From Caldilineaceae bacterium (GTDB taxonomy: Bacteria; Chloroflexota; Anaerolineae; Caldilineales; Caldilineaceae): a stretch of 53,437 nucleotides of DNA. The notes below the pieces were generated by a model. It made no database searches, had not been told where the DNA came from, and was given only the letters and a program-made list of their open reading frames with translations. Below are positions 2,552 to 41,585 of the stretch, piece after piece (position 1 is the stretch's first letter; the number at the start of each line of letters is the position of its first letter). Position numbers and translations under genes: made by a program. The stretch covers positions 1-53,437 of the forward strand of contig JALSIX010000112.1 of assembly GCA_026989655.1 (NCBI GenBank), read 5' to 3'.

Positions 2552-4351
2552 GGCCTCCGTCTCCTCCACGAAGACCACCCGCCCATCCCGGCGGGCTCCG
2601 GCCTCTGGGGTGACCCCTCCGTGGTCTTGGATGTATGCCACCAGCGCACGGCGGAGGAAGAGACCGGTGTCCTCGTAGGGAAGCCTCCGGATGTCCAACA
2701 GATCCAGGCCCAGGTGTCGTCGGGCGTGGGATTCCCACTCCTGGGCAGGTTGGCGGATGAAGCTGCTGCAGGCCACGGTGAAGGTCCGGTTCAGGCACGC
2801 GTCGATGGGGCGGCCCTCCACGGTGATGTCCAGGGCCTGGGCCTGGGCCCGGCCCCTGCCCAGGAGTATCCGGTAGCGGATCCGGCGGTTGAAGTGGAGG
2901 AAGCCTCGCTCTGTGTGAGGCTCGTCAGGCCGATCGGTGCGCAGGGCATTGTCCTGGAGCAGGGCCTTGAGCTGGGCACCGGTGATGTGCATCAGGCGGA
3001 CGGTGTCCGCGAAGGGCATGACGTTGAACCAGTCGCCGAAGGTGAGGGTACCGCCCACGGGAAGGCCGCAGCGCACCGTGGAGCGATCCACCATGGCCAG
3101 GTCCACCGGGAAGCCCGCCGCCCGACAGCGCTCGACCAGGCCGTCCGCGATGAAATTGGCCATGGCCGATTCCCCCGCGGCAAAGGTGTTGCGCACCGCG
3201 AAGGTGCTCAGGTCGGGCTCGTCCGCGACCTGGCCCAAGGGGCGGGCGAAGAGGTTGTGGGCCAGCTCCACCAGGGGGCGGATGTGGCGGGTTTCGAACG
3301 TCTCGTCCACCGGGAGGGCCGCTGTGGGGGTCAGGCGAGCGTTCGTCACCGCGGCTCCTTGGGGCCGCACCAGAAGGTCCACCTCGCCCAGAAAGCGGCC
3401 CAGGGTCCCTGCCTGGACGATGGGAATGCCGTGGACGATGTTCGCGGTGCTCAGGCCCTGTTCGTTCAGCACGTGGTGGGTGTGTCCGCCCACGATGAGA
3501 TGGACCGCGCCTGGGGAGAGGCTCTGGGCCAGCTCCACGTCTCCGACGCCCTGGACCGTGGCCGAGGTGGACGCGGTGCTGTAGCCCAGGTGGCTGAGGA
3601 CGATGCGCACGTCGGTCCAGGGGTGCAGGGCCGGCAGCAGGTTGTGCAGGGTGGCCTGGGGATCTGCGATGTGGAAACGGGTTTGGTGGGGCAGGAGGCG
3701 GACCTGTGCCGGGGTGATCAGGCCGATCACCCCGATCCGGATGCCGTGGATGACGAAGATGGCCGCGGGGTAGATGCATCCCTGGAGCAGAGGGCACTGG
3801 ACCAGGTTGGCCGAGAGGATGGGGAAGCGTGCGTCCGTTCGGATGGCATGGGCCACCATCGCCGGTCCCATGTCCAGATCGTGGTTGCCCAGCCCGGCCA
3901 TGTCGAAGCCCGCGGCCGAGTAGACCCGATAGCCGGCGTGGACCCGGTAACGGCTCGGCTCCTCGCCCAGGAGTTCGTCGAAGACCGCGCCGATCAGGTC
4001 GTCTCCGGCCGACATGACCAGCATGCCTGCATGGGGAGAGCCGGCCAGTTCCCGGCGAAGTTCCCGGATGCGCCAGACCATGCGGGAGAAGACAGGCTGC
4101 TCGCCGTAGGGGGTGAACTGGGTGATGTGGCCGTGGAGATCGTTGATGTGGACGATCTTCAGGTGGAAGTCGTGCGTGCGTGTCCGGGGGCTCTCCGGGA
4201 AGTCCACCTCTGGGGCGGGAGCGATGGCCGAGACCGGTCCGCGGGTCGCATCGCCCACCACCAGGTAGAGCTGGAGAGCGGGGTCGCTGTGGGGGTTGGG
4301 GGTGCCCCGGATCAGACGCAGGGTCCCGGGAGGGATCGACGGTGGGGTCAT
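2519..4351 (-). CDS. 5'-nucleotidase / UshA-type metallophosphoesterase, apparently cytoplasmic
   Basis: 610 residues with the two-domain architecture of bacterial 5'-nucleotidases and 2',3'-cyclic phosphodiesterases. The dimetal metallophosphatase motifs are HINDLHGH (about 68-75), SAGDD, GLGNHDLD, SHLGY and GGHTHH; the C-terminal substrate-binding domain includes GESAMANFIAD and a GTLTFGDWF-like strand. It hydrolyses a phosphate ester, typically of a nucleotide. Unlike most family members there is no signal peptide; the first 60 residues are a Pro-rich extension before the metallophosphatase core. The last residues (EMKSEE) come from heptamer repeat units. The gene starts 16 bp downstream of the dehydrogenase at 4368-5390. 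Nearby deaminases and kinases make a nucleoside-related role plausible but unproven. Confidence 0.88.
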   Translation of the reverse strand: MTPPSIPPGTLRLIRGTPNPHSDPALQLYLVVGDATRGPVSAIAPAPEVDFPESPRTRTHDFHLKIVHINDLHGHITQFTPYGEQPVFSRMVWRIRELRRELAGSPHAGMLVMSAGDDLIGAVFDELLGEEPSRYRVHAGYRVYSAAGFDMAGLGNHDLDMGPAMVAHAIRTDARFPILSANLVQCPLLQGCIYPAAIFVIHGIRIGVIGLITPAQVRLLPHQTRFHIADPQATLHNLLPALHPWTDVRIVLSHLGYSTASTSATVQGVGDVELAQSLSPGAVHLIVGGHTHHVLNEQGLSTANIVHGIPIVQAGTLGRFLGEVDLLVRPQGAAVTNARLTPTAALPVDETFETRHIRPLVELAHNLFARPLGQVADEPDLSTFAVRNTFAAGESAMANFIADGLVERCRAAGFPVDLAMVDRSTVRCGLPVGGTLTFGDWFNVMPFADTVRLMHITGAQLKALLQDNALRTDRPDEPHTERGFLHFNRRIRYRILLGRGRAQAQALDITVEGRPIDACLNRTFTVACSSFIRQPAQEWESHARRHLGLDLLDIRRLPYEDTGLFLRRALVAYIQDHGGVTPEAGARRDGRVVFVEETEAVRSKEMKSEE

Positions 4352-4367
4352 GGCACACCCGATGGGC

Positions 4368-5390
4368 TCACGAGATCCGTTCCAACATCTCCGGGGTGAT
4401 GGGGTTGAGCAAGGGTTCTCCGGCGAAGAAGCGGCGCAGCTCCTCCACCGCCATCTCGCCCATGCGGCCGCAGTCCGCGATGCAGCCGGCCAGGTGCGGG
4501 GTCACCACCGCGTTCTCCAGGTGTCGCAGGGGGCTGTCCGGGGCCGGAGGCTCGGGATCCGTCACGTCCAGGAAGGCGAAGAGGCGCCCTTTGCGCAGCT
4601 CCTGGATGAGCGCGGCCTCGTCGATGAGGGAGCCCCGAGCCGTGTTGATGATCAGGGCATCGTCCTTCATGGCCTGGAGCCGTTCCCGGTTGAGCATGTG
4701 TCGGGTTCTCGGGTTGGCCGGTGCGTGGAGGGAGATGATATCGGCCCGACGCACCAACTCGTCCAGATCCACCCGCTCCACGCCCAGGGCCTGGGCCTCC
4801 TCCGCGGTGACGAAGGGATCGTGTAGCAGGATGTGGACCTGGAAGGGCTCCAGCAGGCGGATCACCCATCGCCCCACGTTGCCCGCGCCCACGATGCCCA
4901 CGGTCCTGTGGTGGAGCTCCCGGGCCGGCCAGTAGGGGCTCTCCCGCCAGCCACCCTCCCGGACGTGGTGGGCCAGGGGCCAGATGCGCTTCATGCCCAC
5001 GATCATCAGGCCCAGGGTGGTCTCGGCCACGTCTCGGGCCAGGGCCGGCGCGGCGCTGGTCACCGCCATTCCCCGTTCCCAGACTGCGTCGGTGATGAAG
5101 CGTTTCACGCTGCCCCCCATGTGGGCCATGATCCGGAGCCGGGGCGCGGCGGCCAGCACGTCCGGGTCCAGGGGGGCTACTTCCCAGCTGGTGATGCATC
5201 CGTCCGCGGGCGGGAGGAGGGCGATGAGGTCCGCCTTGGTGGCTGGTTCATCGCCGGGGTGGTGGATCACCTCCGCGAAGCGGTGAAGCGCGTCCCAGGC
5301 GGCCTGGTTGAACATGCGCGGGTAGTGCCTCTGGCCGATGGTGATGGCGATGGTGGGGCGGGTGGATGGGCGATTCGGCGTCTGGGTCAT
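4368..5390 (-). CDS. D-isomer 2-hydroxyacid dehydrogenase
   Basis: 340 residues. The NAD-binding fingerprint VGIVGAGNVG is at about 164-173. The catalytic triad is complete: Arg252 in NTARG, Glu280 in LDVTDPEPP and His299 in TPHLAG. It would interconvert a 2-hydroxy acid and a 2-keto acid in the cytoplasm. It is a paralogue of the protein at 463-1491, which lacks the Arg. It lies 107 bp downstream of the sugar permease gene and 16 bp upstream of the phosphoesterase, so it probably belongs to the same catabolic operon. The substrate cannot be specified; glycerate, phosphoglycerate or a sugar acid are typical. Confidence 0.92.
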   Translation of the reverse strand: MTQTPNRPSTRPTIAITIGQRHYPRMFNQAAWDALHRFAEVIHHPGDEPATKADLIALLPPADGCITSWEVAPLDPDVLAAAPRLRIMAHMGGSVKRFITDAVWERGMAVTSAAPALARDVAETTLGLMIVGMKRIWPLAHHVREGGWRESPYWPARELHHRTVGIVGAGNVGRWVIRLLEPFQVHILLHDPFVTAEEAQALGVERVDLDELVRRADIISLHAPANPRTRHMLNRERLQAMKDDALIINTARGSLIDEAALIQELRKGRLFAFLDVTDPEPPAPDSPLRHLENAVVTPHLAGCIADCGRMGEMAVEELRRFFAGEPLLNPITPEMLERIS

Positions 5391-5497
5391 GGGGAAGGCT
5401 CGATCGGGACAGGTGAAGGGCGGAGACTAAAGGGCCAGGGTGCTGCGATGGGCCACCGGGCGCTTGGGTGCAGGGGGTGGGGACGTCCCACCTGGTT

Positions 5498-6388
5498 TCA
5501 GCCCTTTACCGCGCCTCGGGTGATGCCCTCCACGAACTGCTTCTGGGTGAAGATGAAGAGCACCAGGATGGGCGCGACGACGAAGATGGTCCCGGCCATG
5601 AGCAGGTTCCATCGGTTTCCCCCCTCCTGGGTCTCCTTCAGGTAGGCCAGGCCGATGGGCAGGGTGCGCATGGCCACCTTGTTGGTGACGATCAGGGGCC
5701 ACAGGTAGTCGTTCCAGCGCCCCACGAAGGAGACCAGGGCCACCGCGGCCAGCAGGGGGCGGCTCATGGGCGCGACCACCCGGAGCAGGGTCTGGACATG
5801 GGTCGCGCCGTCCACGGTGGCGGCATCCAGCAGATCTCGGGGCAAGGTCCGGAACTGCTGGAAGAGCACGAAGACCGGAAAGGCATGGGCCGCGGGGGGG
5901 ATGATCAGGGCCCAGTAGGTGTTGATCCAGCCCAGCTCCTTCAGGAGCAGGTAGTTGGGCACCAGCTTCATCTCCACCGGGATCATCATGGTGGAGAGGA
6001 CCAGCAGGAAGAGCAGGTTCTTGGCCGGAAAGGCGATGAACGCGAAGGCATAGGCCATGAAGAGGGCAAAGAGGACCTGGAGCAGGGTGGTGGCCACCCC
6101 GGTGACCACGCTGTTGATGTAGAAACGATCGAAGGGGGCCGCCTGCCAGGCCTCCACGAAGTTCTCCAGCCGGATCTCGCTGGGCAGCCATCGGGGGGGA
6201 TAGATGACCACCTCCTGGATGGGCTTCAGCGCGGTGGTGGCCATCCAGAAGAAGGGCATGCCCAGGATGACCGCGGACACACCCAGGATCAGATAGGTGA
6301 GCCCGGTGTGGAGCCGTTCACGGCGGCGTCGAGATGCCAGAGCCCTGCCCTGGGCAACCTGGACCTGGACAGAGGGGTTACTCGCCAT
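5498..6388 (-). CDS. ABC transporter permease, carbohydrate CUT1 (MalG/UgpE-type)
   Basis: 296 residues with six predicted membrane segments after a basic N-terminus. The cytoplasmic EAA loop reads DAATVDGATHVQTLLRVVAPMSRP, the site that docks the ATPase, and the C-terminal GITRGAVKG is the typical ending of MalG-type permeases. Its start overlaps the end of the MalF-type gene by 11 bp, indicating translational coupling. With the MalF-type permease and the binding protein at 7548-8900 it forms an importer for a sugar, glycerol-phosphate-like or similar solute. No ATPase gene accompanies it; CUT1 systems often share a distant MsmK-type ATPase. Confidence 0.93.
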   Translation of the reverse strand: MASNPSVQVQVAQGRALASRRRRERLHTGLTYLILGVSAVILGMPFFWMATTALKPIQEVVIYPPRWLPSEIRLENFVEAWQAAPFDRFYINSVVTGVATTLLQVLFALFMAYAFAFIAFPAKNLLFLLVLSTMMIPVEMKLVPNYLLLKELGWINTYWALIIPPAAHAFPVFVLFQQFRTLPRDLLDAATVDGATHVQTLLRVVAPMSRPLLAAVALVSFVGRWNDYLWPLIVTNKVAMRTLPIGLAYLKETQEGGNRWNLLMAGTIFVVAPILVLFIFTQKQFVEGITRGAVKG

Positions 6389-7358: not shown

Positions 7359-7405
7359 AATGAGTAATGAGTAAGGGGGCCGTTTCCCTACACTCATTAC
7401 TCATT
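7359..7405. repeat. Perfect 14-bp inverted repeat built from heptamer units
   Basis: AATGAGTAATGAGT at 7359-7372 and its exact reverse complement ACTCATTACTCATT at 7392-7405 flank a 19-base loop. Further heptamers (ACTCGTT, ACTCATT, ACCCATT) follow to about 7426. The pair would form a strong stem in the mRNA between the binding-protein and MalF-type permease genes. It has no T-run. Confidence 0.75.
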
Positions 7406-7428
7406 ACTCGTTACTCATTACCCATTAC

Positions 7429-23522: not shown

Positions 23523-25052
23523 TCAATCCGCCGCGCTGACCTGGGCTGTATCCAGGGCCATCTCCCTTTCCTGGCCGGCGAAGAAGCGCCAGAAGAGCAG
23601 GGCCGAGACGGTCAGGAAGGCGGCCATGACCATGAACGGCGCCTGGTAGTTCCCCGTGTCCATCAGGCGGCTGCCCAGAAAGCTTCCCAGGCCCGAGACC
23701 GCGCCGGCCAGAGCCATCTGGACCCCCACCTGGGTTCCCCGCTCCCCCGGATCCAGCAGCTCCATGGCAAAGGCGGCGCGGATAGGACCGGCCATGTTCA
23801 TGAGGGTGATGCGGGCGATGTGGGCCAGCCCGGCCACGGTAAGAACAGAGCCCAGAGCGCTGCCCACGTTCGGCGAGAAGGCCAGGAGAACCAGGAAGGG
23901 CACCGCGGCCAGCCGGGTGAGGACCACAGAGCGTACTTTGCCCAGGCGTTGGGCTAGCAGAGGCGCCAGGAAGGCCGCCCCCACCAGGAAGGCCTGCCCC
24001 GCGGCGAAGGTGACCCCGATCTCCACCTCCAGACTGCCCAGGCCCTGGTGGAAGAAGACGTTGAGCAGAGGCAGGACGAACCCGGCGCCGAAGGCCAGAA
24101 CCACCTCCGGCGCGGTGAGCCGCCAGATCCGGTCCGGGTGGGTGACGTTGGCGAATAGGTCCCGCAGGCCGGTCACCGGAGCGCTGGGGAGCGCGGTCTG
24201 CTCCAGCATGAGCGCGGGGATGAGGGAGGCGAACCAGCCCCCGATCCCTGCGTAGGCCACCAGTCGGTAGGTCTGGATGGTGGCGTCTGGGCCTGTGCCG
24301 GCCAGGAGCAAGGGCACCAGGCCGGCCAGGACGGAGCCGATGATGGCCGCGGCGGTCCGGGTGCCCTCGGCCACGCTGAAGAGATGGACCCGCTCGTAGT
24401 CCGCGGAGTTCTCCGCCATGAAGGCCGGCTCTGCCACCCCGTGTATCGCGCTGAAGACGCCGCTTAGGGCCCCGGTGGCCAGGAGCAGGGCCGGGTTGCC
24501 CGTGGAGATGGCGATGAGGGACATGACCGCGCCGCCTCCGTCCCCCAGGATGAAGGAGAGCTTCCGTCCCAACCGGTCCGAGATGAGGCCGGCCGGCACC
24601 GCGAAGAGGGCCCGGGTGATGGAGGCCAGGAGGATGCGCAGGCCGATGAAGGCGATGGGGAAACCCAGCTCCAGCAGATAGAGGTTGAAGAGGACCATCC
24701 AGGTGCCGTGGATCACGTCCATGCCCACCACGTGGACCATATAGAGCCGGGCGTTGCGGCTGAAGAGACGCATCTTGGCCACGTAGCCGCCGATCCCTTT
24801 CCCCGCGTGGAAGCGCTCCGGCGTCACCGGTTCCGGCTTCCTCTGGCCGGTGAAGAGGATGATGGCCACGCCCGCGATGACGGCCAGGCCGAAGAGCAGG
24901 AAGCCCCAGGCCAAAGGGCCGGCCAACACCGAGGCCTGGCCCTCTCCGCCCCCGTGGGCCAGGGCCTGGCCGGGGATCCCCAGGGCAAGCAGAGTCACAG
25001 CTGTTGGGAGGACGGCCCATCGGGCCCTTGGGCCAGTTCGGAGGCAGGTCAT
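23523..25052 (-). CDS. MFS transporter with an extra N-terminal signal-like/TM module
   Basis: 509 residues from the ATG at 25052, chosen for GAGGAG 8 bases upstream; the open frame extends to 25136 without support. The core is a 12-TM major facilitator with motif A GLISDRLGRK between TM2 and TM3. In front lies an unusual extra module: a signal-peptide-like hydrophobic stretch ending AQALAHGGGEGQ and a further membrane helix (about 45-67), joined by a charged loop to the MFS core. It resembles drug/solute exporters but no substrate motif is evident. It is monocistronic; the 1.2-kb palindromic repeat array lies upstream of its start. Confidence 0.85.
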   Translation of the reverse strand: MTCLRTGPRARWAVLPTAVTLLALGIPGQALAHGGGEGQASVLAGPLAWGFLLFGLAVIAGVAIILFTGQRKPEPVTPERFHAGKGIGGYVAKMRLFSRNARLYMVHVVGMDVIHGTWMVLFNLYLLELGFPIAFIGLRILLASITRALFAVPAGLISDRLGRKLSFILGDGGGAVMSLIAISTGNPALLLATGALSGVFSAIHGVAEPAFMAENSADYERVHLFSVAEGTRTAAAIIGSVLAGLVPLLLAGTGPDATIQTYRLVAYAGIGGWFASLIPALMLEQTALPSAPVTGLRDLFANVTHPDRIWRLTAPEVVLAFGAGFVLPLLNVFFHQGLGSLEVEIGVTFAAGQAFLVGAAFLAPLLAQRLGKVRSVVLTRLAAVPFLVLLAFSPNVGSALGSVLTVAGLAHIARITLMNMAGPIRAAFAMELLDPGERGTQVGVQMALAGAVSGLGSFLGSRLMDTGNYQAPFMVMAAFLTVSALLFWRFFAGQEREMALDTAQVSAAD

Positions 25053-25204
25053 GTCGGGGCTCCTCTTCTGGGAAACGATGGATGCAGGATGGTTGTCAAG
25101 TTCCCGTGGCGTGGGCGCTTTCTTCGTGCTCAGCATACCACGGTCCTGTGCCTCCAGCCATCCGGCGAGGGGACATCGCAGGGCCTGTACTTTCGTCCAG
25201 GTGA

Positions 25205-26390
25205 GGGAGGTTGGCGCACTTCAGTGCGTAGATACATTCTAGAATGCGCGCTGAAGCGCGCACGACGAACGGGAGGTGCGCGGAAGCGGGCACGACGAGC
25301 ACTATGAACGGGTTCGAGGTTGGGGTTGGTAGTACGCACTTCAGTGCGCAGATACATTCCAGAATGCGCGCTGAAGCGCGCACGACGAGCACTATGAACC
25401 GAGGTTGGGGTTGGTAGTGCGCACTTCAGTGCGCAGATACATTCCAGAAGGCGCGCTGAAGCGCGCACTACGAACAGGAGGTGCGCGGAAGCGGGCACGA
25501 CGAGCACTATGAACGGGTTCGAGGTTGGGGTTGGTAGTGCGCACTTCAGTGCGCAGATACATTCCAGAAGGCGCGCTGAAGCGGGCGCGACGAACGGGAA
25601 GCGAAGCGGAAGCGGGCACGACGAGCACTATGAACGGGTTCGAGGTTGGGGTTGGTAGTGCGCACTTCAGTGCGTAGATACATTCCAGAATACGCGCTGA
25701 AGCGCGCACTACGAACGGGAAGCGCGCGGGAGCGGGCACGACGAGCACTATGAACGGGTTCGAGGTTGGGGTTGGTAGTGCGCACTTCAGTGCGCAGATA
25801 CATTCCAGAAGGCGCGCTGAAGCGGGCGCGACGAACGGGAAGCGAAGCGGAAGCGGGCACGACGAGCACTATGAACGAGTTCGAGGTCGGGGTTGGTAGT
25901 GCGCACTTCAGTGCGTAGATACATTCCAGAAGGCGCGCTGAAGCGCGCACTACGAACGGGAAGCGAAGCGGAAGCGGGCACGACGAGCACTATGAACGAG
26001 TTCGAGGTTGGGGTTGGTAGTGCGCACTTCAGTGCGTAGATACATTCCAGAAGGCGCGCTGAAGCGCGCACTACGAACGGGAAGCGAAGCGGAAGCGGGC
26101 ACGACGAGCACTATGAACGAGTTCGAGGTTGGGGTTGGTAGTGCGCACTTCAGTGCGTAGATACCCGCGCCAGTCCGGAAGGCGCGCTGAAGCGCGCACT
26201 ACGAACAGGAGGTGCGCGGAAGCGGGCACGACGAGCACTATGAACGGGTTCGAGGTTGGGGTTGGTAGTGCGCACTTCAGTGCGTAGATCCATTCTAGAA
26301 TGCGCGCTGAAGCGCGCACTACGAACGGGAAGCGCGCTGAAGCGCGCACGACGAACGGGAGGCGAGCGGAGGTGGGCACGACGAACGGGG
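25205..26390. repeat. Array of ten ~120-bp palindrome-rich tandem repeats
   Basis: The marker CACTTCAGTGCG occurs at 25217, 25337, 25422, 25542, 25663, 25783, 25904, 26025, 26146 and 26273. Spacing is mostly 120 or 121 bp, once 85 (a copy lacking the middle module) and once 127 (longer linker). Each unit holds two small hairpins, GCGCACTTCAGTGCGC and GCGCGCTGAAGCGCGC, which are also imperfect inverted copies of each other (16 of 18 paired over the extended arms), then a module GAACGGGAAGCG... and a tail containing GAACGGGTTCGAGGTTGGGG. The whole unit is conserved, so this is not a CRISPR. The array ends exactly at the stop codon of the response regulator. Small open frames through it are repeat artefacts. 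Confidence 0.9.
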
Positions 26391-27032
26391 TTAGAGGCGG
26401 GGTTGGAGACGCACCAGGCCCCGTTGCACGGCCAGGGTGGCCGCATCCGTACGGTTGGTCGCGCCCAGCTTGCCCAGGATGTTGCTCACGTGGAGCTTGA
26501 CCGTCCGCTCGGTGATGCCCAGACGGGCCGCGATCTGCTTGTTGGCCAGCCCTTGGGCCACCAGTTGCAACACCTCTTGCTCCCGAGGTGTGAGGGGGTC
26601 GGCATCGCCCCGAACATGGCCTACCAGCGTGCGGGCCACCTGGGGCTGGATCCAGACCCCGCCCCCGGCCACGGTGCGCACGGCCCGGAAGAGCTCCTCC
26701 CGGGGCGCGCCCTTGAGCAGGTAGCCCTGGGCTCCGGCCTGCACGGCTCCCATGACCTGGGCGTCTGCGTCGTAGGCGGTGAAGACCAGCACCCGCACCG
26801 GGGAGCCCTGGGTTGCCAGGGCCCGGAGCACCTGGACCCCATCCAGGTCGGGCATCTCCAGGTCCAGGAGCAGGATATCGGGCCCCAGGCCGGCGACCTG
26901 TTCCAGGACCTCCGGGCCACTGGCCGCCTCGCCCACGACGACGAGATCGGGTTGGGTCTCCAGCACGGCCCGTAGGCCGTCTCGCACAATGGGATGATCG
27001 TCGGCCACCAGGATCCGGATGGGTCCGTTCAC
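26391..27032 (-). CDS. NarL/FixJ-type response regulator
   Basis: 213 residues. The receiver domain has the acidic pair D11/D12, phosphoacceptor Asp57 (ILLLDLEMPD), a Thr in VFTAY and the Lys in YLLKG. The C-terminal LuxR-type helix-turn-helix (about 148-205) reads LTPREQEVLQLVAQGLANKQIA. It is phosphorylated by the partner kinase, whose stop overlaps this ATG by 4 bp (ATGA). It acts as a DNA-binding transcription factor; targets are unknown. Its stop codon is the right boundary of the palindromic repeat array. Confidence 0.94.
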   Translation of the reverse strand: MNGPIRILVADDHPIVRDGLRAVLETQPDLVVVGEAASGPEVLEQVAGLGPDILLLDLEMPDLDGVQVLRALATQGSPVRVLVFTAYDADAQVMGAVQAGAQGYLLKGAPREELFRAVRTVAGGGVWIQPQVARTLVGHVRGDADPLTPREQEVLQLVAQGLANKQIAARLGITERTVKLHVSNILGKLGATNRTDAATLAVQRGLVRLQPRL

Positions 27033-28216
27033 GTCTGGCCTCCCACGGGCAGGATGACCTGGAGATGGGTGCCCTGGCCTGGCTGGCTCTGGATGGAAAG
27101 GCGGCCGCCCAGAAGCTGGGCCCGTTCCCGCATGCCCCGGATGCCGAACGCGTCCCCGGGGGTCTGCTGGGGCTCGAAGCCCACGCCATCGTCGGTGATG
27201 TCCAGGCGCACTTCGCGGGGCCGGAAGGTGAGCAGGAGCTGGACCTGGGAGGCCTGGGCATGTTCCACCACGTTGCGGAGGGCCTCCTCTGCAATCCTGT
27301 AGAGGGCCACCTCCACCCGGACGGGCAGAGGCCGGATGCTCCCTGCCACACGCCAGGCCACGGGCAGGCCCGCGTTGGCCACCAACTGTTCCAGGGCCTC
27401 CACCAGGGTTCGGCCCTCCAGGGGCGCGGCCCGGAGATCCGCCACCGAGCGTCGGGCCTCCTCCAGGCCGATGCGGGCCAGGGTCAGGGCCCGGTTCACC
27501 GCCTCCGTCACCTGGGCAGGTGCCGCGCCGGCCTCCAACAGGGCCTCGCTGGTCTCCAGGTGGAGGATGATGGCCGTGAGGCGTTGGGCCAAGGTGTCGT
27601 GGATCTCCCGGGCCAGCCGGTTTCGCTCCCGCAGGGCGCCCACCTCCGCGCTGCGGGCGAAGAGGCGGGTCCGCTCCACCGCCATGCCCAGCAGGTCGCC
27701 CACTGTGTGGAGCAGGCGCAGGTCCTCCGGGGAGAGCTCCTGCCAGTCCGGGCTGGCCACGTTGAGCACCCCTACCCGCTTGCCCCGAGCGTAGAGAGGG
27801 ATGCTGGCGTGGTAGGCCAGGCCGGCCGTGCCGCTCATCAGGTTGTGCAGGCGGCTGCAGAGCACCACGTTCACGTTGGCCGCGCCCTCCATGTCCCCGG
27901 CCAGGTAGGTGTCCAGGCAGTAGCAGGAGCCGGCCAGCCGATCCGGATCGTCGGCCAGGCCCGGGGGCAGGTGTTGGGCCGCGGCCAGGTAGAACTCCTC
28001 CGTCTCCTCGTCCAGGAGGAAGACCCAGCCCGTCTCCAGGCCCAGGAGCTCCGCCACCAGGGCCAGCGCGGTCCCCAGGGCCTCGTCCAGGTCCAGGGTG
28101 CCGTTCAACGCGGCGGCGATGGCGTTGAGGATGGCCAGCTCCTGACTGCGCCGGGCCAGTGGGCTGGCATCCCCATGGTCTTCGGTCTGGGCAGGGGGAC
28201 GGTCTTCTGGGTCCAT
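27029..28216 (-). CDS. GAF-domain sensor histidine kinase (HisKA_3 / NarX-DegS type), cysteine-bearing GAF
   Basis: 395 residues from the ATG at 28216; the open frame upstream is GC-rich leader. The GAF domain (about 25-180) contains a CYC pair (C98, C100) and C120 in VVLCSRL. HisKA_3 has phospho-accepting His206 in RLAREIHDTLAQRL, and the HATPase_c domain shows EEALRNVVEHA (N315) and DDGVGF. There are no membrane segments, so it is a cytoplasmic sensor. The clustered cysteines suggest redox, gas or metal-cluster sensing, as in some NreB/AirS-like kinases, but this is inference. It is cotranscribed with the NarL regulator. The promoter lies immediately upstream, compatible with a leaderless message. 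Confidence 0.92.
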   Translation of the reverse strand: MDPEDRPPAQTEDHGDASPLARRSQELAILNAIAAALNGTLDLDEALGTALALVAELLGLETGWVFLLDEETEEFYLAAAQHLPPGLADDPDRLAGSCYCLDTYLAGDMEGAANVNVVLCSRLHNLMSGTAGLAYHASIPLYARGKRVGVLNVASPDWQELSPEDLRLLHTVGDLLGMAVERTRLFARSAEVGALRERNRLAREIHDTLAQRLTAIILHLETSEALLEAGAAPAQVTEAVNRALTLARIGLEEARRSVADLRAAPLEGRTLVEALEQLVANAGLPVAWRVAGSIRPLPVRVEVALYRIAEEALRNVVEHAQASQVQLLLTFRPREVRLDITDDGVGFEPQQTPGDAFGIRGMRERAQLLGGRLSIQSQPGQGTHLQVILPVGGQT

Positions 28217-28222
28217 GGTCCC

Positions 28223-28251
28223 AGTGTACGCGATCCGGGATGGCCTGGCAA
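28223..28251 (-). promoter_or_regulatory. Promoter of the GAF kinase, possibly leaderless
   Basis: On the minus strand TTGCCA (28251-28246) and TACACT (28228-28223) are 17 bases apart. A start 7 bases past the -10 falls on 28216, the A of the predicted ATG, and no SD is present there. Confidence 0.5.
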
Positions 28252-28409
28252 GGAGAGGGTCCGCCGCGCGGGGTGGAGAGTCCGGTTCCTCCCCCCGGCC
28301 CGACAGAGCCATGCTGAAAAGCGGTTCGACTCTGTCCGGGGACCGGATCTGTCGCGAGGCCTGGTCGACTGGCCTGGGGGAGGGGGTGCAGGCCCCATGG
28401 GGGACGGGT

Positions 28410-29541: not shown

Positions 29542-29970
29542 TCACGATGGATCAAGAAAATGGAGAAACTCCCGGGGTGTCACGATGGAGACGCCTTCCA
29601 CCTGGCCCAGCACCAGCAGGTCCTTGTCTCCGGTGACCAGATAGTTGGCCCGGGCGAGAACAGCATAGGCCAACAGATAGTCGTCCTTGGGATCCCGGGT
29701 TACCGCAGGAATCGGGACATCCAGCGTAGGCAGCGCCTCCGCCACACCCCTGACAATCTCGATGAAGGCGTCTACGTCCTCCGGCGCGATGTGACGAACC
29801 AGGTAGGGCTTGGTTCGAACCCGAGCGCCGAACTCCGCCAGCAATTCCGCTGGCGCGAGCAGCGTGTACTGCCCAGCCACCGCCGCCCGGACGATGGTCG
29901 CGTACGGGCTGTCCGCGTCGGGATGGAGGAGGAAACTGATGAAAATGTTGGCGTCCAGGAGCACGCGCAC
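29542..29970 (-). CDS. PIN-domain ribonuclease toxin (VapC-like)
   Basis: 142 residues. The PIN fold has the acidic nuclease residues in MRVLLDANIF (Asp6), LLAEF (about Glu44), RDPKDDYLLA and VTGDKDLL. This is the COG1569 type of putative toxin, paired with Phd-like antitoxins. It would cleave RNA when free of its antitoxin. It starts 3 bp after the antitoxin stop, the usual antitoxin-first order. The pair lies between two DUF917 genes. Codon use is somewhat less G+C-rich than in the neighbours, consistent with acquisition. Confidence 0.9.
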   Translation of the reverse strand: MRVLLDANIFISFLLHPDADSPYATIVRAAVAGQYTLLAPAELLAEFGARVRTKPYLVRHIAPEDVDAFIEIVRGVAEALPTLDVPIPAVTRDPKDDYLLAYAVLARANYLVTGDKDLLVLGQVEGVSIVTPREFLHFLDPS

Positions 29971-29973
29971 CGG

Positions 29974-30306
29974 TTACTGGCCCTTGTACTGGACTTTGCC
30001 CGAGGCGATCAGCTCCTCCACGAACTCTCGGCCGAAGCGCTCGGCAAGCTGCTCGGCCTCCTCGGGTCTGAGTCTGTGTTCGCCTGCCTGCAAACGTTGA
30101 CCCAGAGCGTCAAGACGCTCCAGAAGCTGCTGACGGCGGGCCTCCTCTGCAACGGCCTGCATCTCCGAGTACTTTTCATAGGAGAGAAGGACTGCCTTGG
30201 GTTTGCCCCGGGTCACGATCACGATGGGCTCGTCCTCCTCAGCAGTCTGCTGCATCAATGCCCCGAGGCGAGCTTTGGCCTCGGTGGCGGACACGGTCTT
30301 GGTCAT
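29974..30306 (-). CDS. Phd/YefM-type antitoxin
   Basis: 110 residues. The N-terminal Phd/YefM DNA-binding fold (TVSATEAKARLGALMQQ, then EPIVIVTRGKPKAVLLSYEKYSEMQ) is followed by a long charged helical C-terminus that would wrap the PIN toxin. It neutralises the toxin and represses its own promoter in characterised systems. SD GGAGGA lies upstream, and a strong promoter with a T/A-rich imperfect dyad (CCAT..ATGG, 30351-30374) overlapping the start region lies at 30379-30407. Confidence 0.9.
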   Translation of the reverse strand: MTKTVSATEAKARLGALMQQTAEEDEPIVIVTRGKPKAVLLSYEKYSEMQAVAEEARRQQLLERLDALGQRLQAGEHRLRPEEAEQLAERFGREFVEELIASGKVQYKGQ

Positions 30307-41399: not shown

Positions 41400-41585
41400 G
41401 CGTGACGAGTGATGCGTAATGAGTGAAATGCGTAATGGGTCATGAGAGTAAGATGAGCGATGCGTGATGCAGTGATGTGTGCTGGATGCTGTTCGGCCGA
41501 CCGGTTTGGGGAACAAGCCGGGCCACATACACACTCACCCCTTACCCCTTAACTCCTTAACTCTTAACTCCTTAACTCTTTACTC
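41400..41585. repeat. Heptamer repeat tracts (fourth locus), two opposed runs
   Basis: The left run (GTGACGA, GTGATGC, GTAATGA, GTGAAAT, GTAATGG and similar, about 41400-41480) and the right run (AACTCCTT, AACTCTT, AACTCCTT, AACTCTT, about 41540-41585) face each other in the gap between the HyuA and HyuB genes. About 60 bp of ordinary sequence separates them. No gene is seen in this gap. Confidence 0.65.

Follow-up and report, generated by a model that had tools for sequence, protein, structure and literature searches.

The window analysed here comprises 53,437 nucleotides of a contig (C112) from a Caldilineaceae draft genome. In it, a tandem array of short units lies between the genes of a response regulator and an MFS transporter. 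An earlier note on this DNA had the array abut the stop codon of a GAF-kinase regulator. The adjacency holds, but the gene encodes a NarL/LuxR-type response regulator, and the GAF kinase is the next gene up. The features are as follows.

23523–25136, minus strand: MFS transporter, the downstream gene; its start is probably near 25050, going by a relative
25203–26397, no strand: the whole REP/BIME array, apparently inserted; 1195 bp, bounds from the alignment with an empty site
25215–25334, plus strand: unit 1, with a plus-strand REP lacking the tag (GGTTGG-CGCACTTCAGTGCG)
25335–25419, plus strand: unit 2, 85 bp (35 bp shorter), middle module deleted
25420–26143, plus strand: units 3–8, each of 120/121 bp
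25896–25915, plus strand: example plus-strand REP (unit 7), a GTAG tag and a perfect hairpin of 6–7 bp with a 2-nt loop
25934–25953, minus strand: example minus-strand REP (unit 7), GTAG tag on the minus strand, head-to-head with the plus REP
25958–26016, minus strand: third REP-like module of unit 7, decayed as judged against the intact copy at 26332–26352, with the spacer
26144–26270, plus strand: unit 9, 127 bp, with a replaced or longer (+7 bp) linker inside its REP pair
26271–26390, plus strand: unit 10, the edge unit on the regulator side, with a plus REP, two intact minus REPs and one decayed minus REP
26391–26396, minus strand: final Leu codon and TAA stop of the response regulator, apparently from the array edge; the relative has Glu-TGA
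26391–27032, minus strand: NarL/LuxR-type response regulator, whose stop abuts the array
27029–28312: GAF histidine kinase, the next gene up from the response regulator

Elsewhere in the window, a PIN-domain toxin and Phd/YefM antitoxin pair (29542–30306, minus strand) sits between two S-Me-THD (DUF917-type) genes. Two short A+T-richer tandem repeats, ACTCATT ×5 at 7392–7428 and CCTTAACTCTTAACT ×3 at 41540–41585, are unrelated to the REPs.

The ten unit heads (CGCACTTCAGTGCG) start at 25215, 25335, 25420, 25540, 25661, 25781, 25902, 26023, 26144 and 26271, with head-to-head distances of 120, 85, 120, 121, 120, 121, 121, 121 and 127 bp, and the TRF score of the array is 1592–1641. These positions bear out the ten units of 120/121-bp period that the earlier note had described, as well as its unit without a middle module (unit 2) and its unit with a longer linker (unit 9). 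In a full unit, a linker of 17–18 bases separates a plus-strand hairpin from one on the minus strand; the third module, decayed and likewise on the minus strand, comes next, followed by a spacer with GGGGTTGGTAGT as its end. The deletion in unit 2 is flanked by the short direct repeats GCGCACGACGA and GGGCACGACGA, and the minus-strand hairpins of unit 10 (two intact and the decayed third) follow each other with a 30-bp period at 26302–26389. The two hairpins claimed for each unit are present, but the first stem is not generally 7 bp long: GCGC...GCGC occurs in at most four of the ten units, and since the last base of the first hairpin is T in the other six, the stem there has 6 bp. The whole unit is conserved, as had been noted. 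Units 7 and 8 are identical, units 4 and 6 differ at two sites, and the mean unit-to-unit difference rises from about 8 at lag 1–2 to 12 at lag 5, a trend to which unit 10 contributes in part. A CRISPR array is ruled out, because the would-be spacers are conserved along with the whole unit.

The plus-strand hairpin reads GTAG-T-GCGCACTTCAGTGCG and its inverted partner GTAG-T-GCGCGCTTCAGCGCGC. Read from the outer side, both strands present GTAG-T-stem-TC-stem, namely GTAGTGCGCACTTCAGTGCG (plus) and GTAGTGCGCGCTTCAGCGCG (minus). The element is thus a REP, a palindrome with an unpaired GTAG at its 5′ foot, and REPs paired head-to-head in inverted orientation form a BIME or REPIN. In several minus-strand REPs of the array, the tag reads GTCG; because of these tags and the decayed third module, some REPs of the window may be inactive. 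Folding reproduced the mutual pairing of the two hairpins that the earlier note had proposed, both as single-stranded DNA (−23.5 kcal/mol, z −2.0 against shuffles) and, more clearly, as RNA (−39.3, z −3.2). A search of the window with Rfam covariance models gave zero matches.

The search for dispersed copies that had been suggested for the host genome was run and found them on other contigs. In pattern searches of the 4.09-Mb draft genome, from which all genome-wide REP counts come, the tagged hairpin had 77 sites at up to three mismatches, against one for the reversed pattern. These are few copies for a REP family. The REP occurs on about 10 contigs, at least six of them besides the window contig, mostly with different linkers; intergenic position was checked for the window and for contig C94. 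Further arrays lie on C1 (period 86/101), C94 (about 89), C55/C22 (about 94), C108 and C13, and single copies on C8 and C31. The units of C94 and of the window have the 25-mer GGTTGGTAGTGCGCACTTCAGTGCG in common, and the C94 and C108 arrays have the same linker. Since the hairpins are common to the arrays and the linkers mostly are not, comparison of these sequences indicates that the arrays grew locally.

Contig C82 carries an array of a related REP type with period 60, located near the contig end (16416–17235) and built of a GTCG/GTAG-tagged REP pair with AACGACTTCAGTCGTT and AGTCGCTTCAGCGACT. REP arrays lie at or next to the ends of several contigs (L056, 1–275; L057, 3190–3461; C94, 14265–14852; L058, which is C82). 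The arrays therefore probably broke the assembly, and the copy numbers there are lower bounds; the start of C22 and the end of C55 may be the same array.

A RAYT-type transposase, which the earlier note had advised looking for in the genome, is present on C94 and flanked by the same REP. The intact gene of 190 aa begins 15 bp after the end of the C94 array. It is near the contig end, with REPs on its upstream side, and the contig stops just after it. The protein scores 99.2 bits against NCBIfam NF047646 (REP_Tyr_transpos; cut-off 80) and just under the cut-off of Pfam Y1_Tnp, and the first PDB match of its family profile is E. coli TnpA-REP (4ER8, 2.5e-11). It has a proline-rich N-terminus and the motifs NHYH, VWY and YIHYNP. 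Among 12 aligned homologues NHYH, the W and YIHYNP are invariant; among 80 homologues NHYH is present in 74 and YIHYNP in 73. A single gene with HUH and Tyr motifs stands beside the same REPs, and the genome has no other close copy of it. Its nearest relatives among RAYTs, at 65% identity, come from Anaerolineae/Chloroflexi MAGs, which can only hint at the phylum of the host, as RAYTs are patchy. Going by its motifs, proline-rich N-terminus and long canonical REPs, the C94 RAYT matches TnpA(Y1) subclass 2.8.

Three other Y1 genes were considered as the mobiliser and rejected, those on C147 and C6 because each has its own different REPs and that on C52 because adjoining REP-like repeats are absent. 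Upstream of the second RAYT, on C147 (5641–5982), is a long block of different, very G+C-rich REPs (4522–5581; GTAG with GCCGGGGGAATMATCCCCCGGC and GCCCGGCGACTTCATCGCCGGGC). The third RAYT-like gene, on C6 (L061; about 3800–4300 within 3556–4439), is accompanied by palindromes TGCGCATGGGAGCATGCGCA with a GGAG tag, not GTAG. The degenerate homologue on C52 (L064, 1369–1950), with SRVHLL as its HUH motif and without REP-like repeats nearby, may be either a domesticated copy or a dead one.

Scanning genome contigs yielded 80 RAYT loci, with Chloroflexota, Cyanobacteria and several other phyla represented; by record title, further hosts include Planctomycetota, Poribacteria, Deltaproteobacteria, Calditrichaceae, Bacteroidetes, Lentisphaerae and others. 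With a detector that required nothing beyond GTAG and a perfect stem of 6 or more, GTAG-hairpins were found within 500 bp of the RAYT in 61 of the 80 loci. Their density was 3.47/kb near RAYTs and 0.23/kb in far flanks, a 15-fold difference, and six control tags reached 0.01–0.26/kb near RAYTs. Tandem arrays with a REP in the unit were present at 23 of the 80 loci; tandem BIMEs beside these RAYTs are therefore common. At the locus of one Chloroflexi MAG (L160), the plus REP is identical to that of the window and its partner is that of C94. Furthermore, the REP stems covary. In 148 distinct elements picked by GTAG and the CTTYAG core, with outer pairs not required, 81% of the outer-pair cells were Watson-Crick, against 40% with shuffled arms.

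Another genome of the family (G008) carries the kinase, the response regulator (85% identical) and the MFS gene in the same order, and the array is absent. Its sequence at the regulator end reads ...CTCCAACCCCG AGAATG ACCTGTACGAAAGTACAG. In the alignment with the window, the two sides match as far as 26398 and again from 25202, and 1195 bp lie in between. Searches of that genome found no close RAYT and no REP of the window type. By this alignment, the G008 locus is the empty site and the insertion is polarised, as judged from one relative with a regulator 85% identical. Since the inserted DNA spans 25203–26397, it covers the last codon and stop (CTC TAA) of the regulator, which, in comparison with this one relative, apparently came with the insertion. 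At the junction there is a small palindrome, CTGTAC GAAA GTACAG, a placement that rests on the same relative. GGGGTTGGTAG also precedes the REPs of the C94 array, a likeness due either to chance or to target preference. Three more distant regulator homologues (L187–L189), in which the same junction was not seen, were left out of the empty-site comparison.

Whether the array is instead retained because it regulates the kinase/response-regulator operon, slowing ribosomes, protecting or destabilising the mRNA 3′ end, or insulating the MFS gene, deserves consideration. The array abuts a stop codon, the RNA fold of the unit is stronger than that of shuffles, and transcripts may run across the array, since its two neighbouring genes have the same orientation. 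In E. coli, as reviewed in PMC12306157, translation drops when a REP is closer than 16 nt to the stop codon. However, the first intact hairpin on the transcript comes about 40 nt past the stop, outside that range; the same operon does without the array in G008, and the same REPs occur at unrelated loci with other linkers. We therefore consider this reading unlikely. An array of sites for a DNA-binding protein (gyrase-, IHF- or regulator-like) with selected copy number would agree with the regular 120/121-bp period. Yet arrays of the same REP elsewhere in the genome have periods of about 60, 86–101 and 89 bp, so the spacing is not fixed, and in 36 same-family genomes the REP pattern used is absent except for two one-mismatch sites in one genome. 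This makes such a role quite improbable. The protein-binding and RNA options of the earlier note may instead describe secondary effects.

The terminator block that had also been suggested fares worse. Strong G+C-rich hairpins between genes are what it would predict, but no hairpin of the array is followed by a T run, and a terminator search of 25000–26500 gave one terminator-like match, outside the array and equal to the shuffle expectation; this reading is very improbable. A translated repeat protein or an assembly artefact can practically be discounted. Open frames on the minus strand reach 134 aa, but a coding repeat is rejected: as had been argued from the period changes, a 121-bp period puts each unit in a different frame from the one before, and none stays open across the array. 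Nor is it an artefact, because the units differ and both the related arrays and the RAYT loci of relatives have the same structure, although the copy number in the draft assembly could be off.

Taken together, the array is very probably a tandemly amplified BIME, non-autonomous mobile DNA such as a domesticated transposase spreads, belonging to the REPtron of the C94 RAYT (TnpA-REP, TnpA(Y1) subclass 2.8). The first option of the earlier note, an expanded REP/BIME-like element, is borne out by the dispersed copies, the RAYT with the same REP, and the folding and covariation. The REP anatomy, the dispersal, the RAYT with cognate REPs adjoining, the covarying stems and the empty site of a relative are observed, and from them, in a species known from one genome, we infer movement. 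The RAYT would cut and join single-stranded REP DNA through its HYH/Tyr active site, its predicted substrate being single-stranded GTAGTGCGCACTTCAGTGCGC. A REP pair would have landed just after the response-regulator gene. The unit would then have multiplied in place, whether because units recombined with one another, because replication slipped between them or because the RAYT processed them; multiplication in place is suggested because linkers are common within an array and not between most arrays. For this multiplication recombination between units would suffice, RAYT processing being another possibility. We take the array for selfish or domesticated mobile DNA and not for a dedicated regulator; an effect on the regulator, via the mRNA 3′ end or sites for supercoiling proteins, would be secondary. 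In a bolder version of this mobile-DNA reading, the system is a subclass 2.8 REPtron outside cyanobacteria that was acquired recently and is still active; processing by its RAYT, and not mere recombination, builds the tandem BIME arrays, and array edges rewrite gene 3′ ends. We regard this version as doubtful; if true, the array edge replaced the last codon and stop of the response regulator.

The window REPs share with enterobacterial REP/BIMEs and E. coli TnpA-REP (4ER8; PMC8266576) an enzyme of the HUH/Tyr family, the GTAG guide, paired inverted REPs and tandem BIMEs. In contrast to the bulged stems of E. coli REPs, they are perfect palindromes with a CTTYAG core, nearer to the perfect-palindrome group. 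The E. coli RAYT and two others have been shown to bind and cut single-stranded GTAG-tagged hairpins (PMC8266576), and by analogy the C94 RAYT would do the same. With TnpA(Y1) subclass 2.8, whose RAYTs have long canonical GT[AG]G REPs, it has in common NHYH, W[YH], YIHYNP, a length of about 199 aa and a proline-rich N-terminus (PMC6006769). The eight sequences of that survey were all cyanobacterial, with relatives from other phyla noted in nr, whereas the nearest RAYTs here come from Chloroflexota MAGs. Unlike in the REPtrons of that subclass, the window array and the RAYT lie on separate contigs.

Di Nocera et al. 2013 (PMC3733652) described GTAG REPs, together with their head-to-head dimers and tandem clusters, from Chloroflexi and Cyanobacteria. 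These REPs, T. roseum GTAG-23 included, agree with those of the window in the GTAG tag, the perfect stem of 6–9 bp and the very short TY-type loop, in head-to-head dimers 20–100 bp apart that are reiterated in tandem with flanking DNA, and in intergenic positions where their ends, as is often the case, supply stop codons to neighbouring genes. T. roseum GTAG-23 elements have also been reported within small palindromes (PMC3733652). The window unit differs in its third, decayed REP, and its stem (GCGCAC/GCGCGC) is likened to theirs by architecture, not by stem consensus. Since GTAG REPs, their dimers and tandem clusters, Chloroflexi hosts and subclass 2.8 RAYTs are already described, the array is a well-documented further example. 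A REPtron with polarised insertion, a single candidate enzyme and fixed-linker arrays is good material for studying how RAYTs spread and amplify REPs, and the 80-locus set with covarying stems from Chloroflexota, Cyanobacteria and several other phyla extends a subclass until now sampled by eight cyanobacterial sequences.
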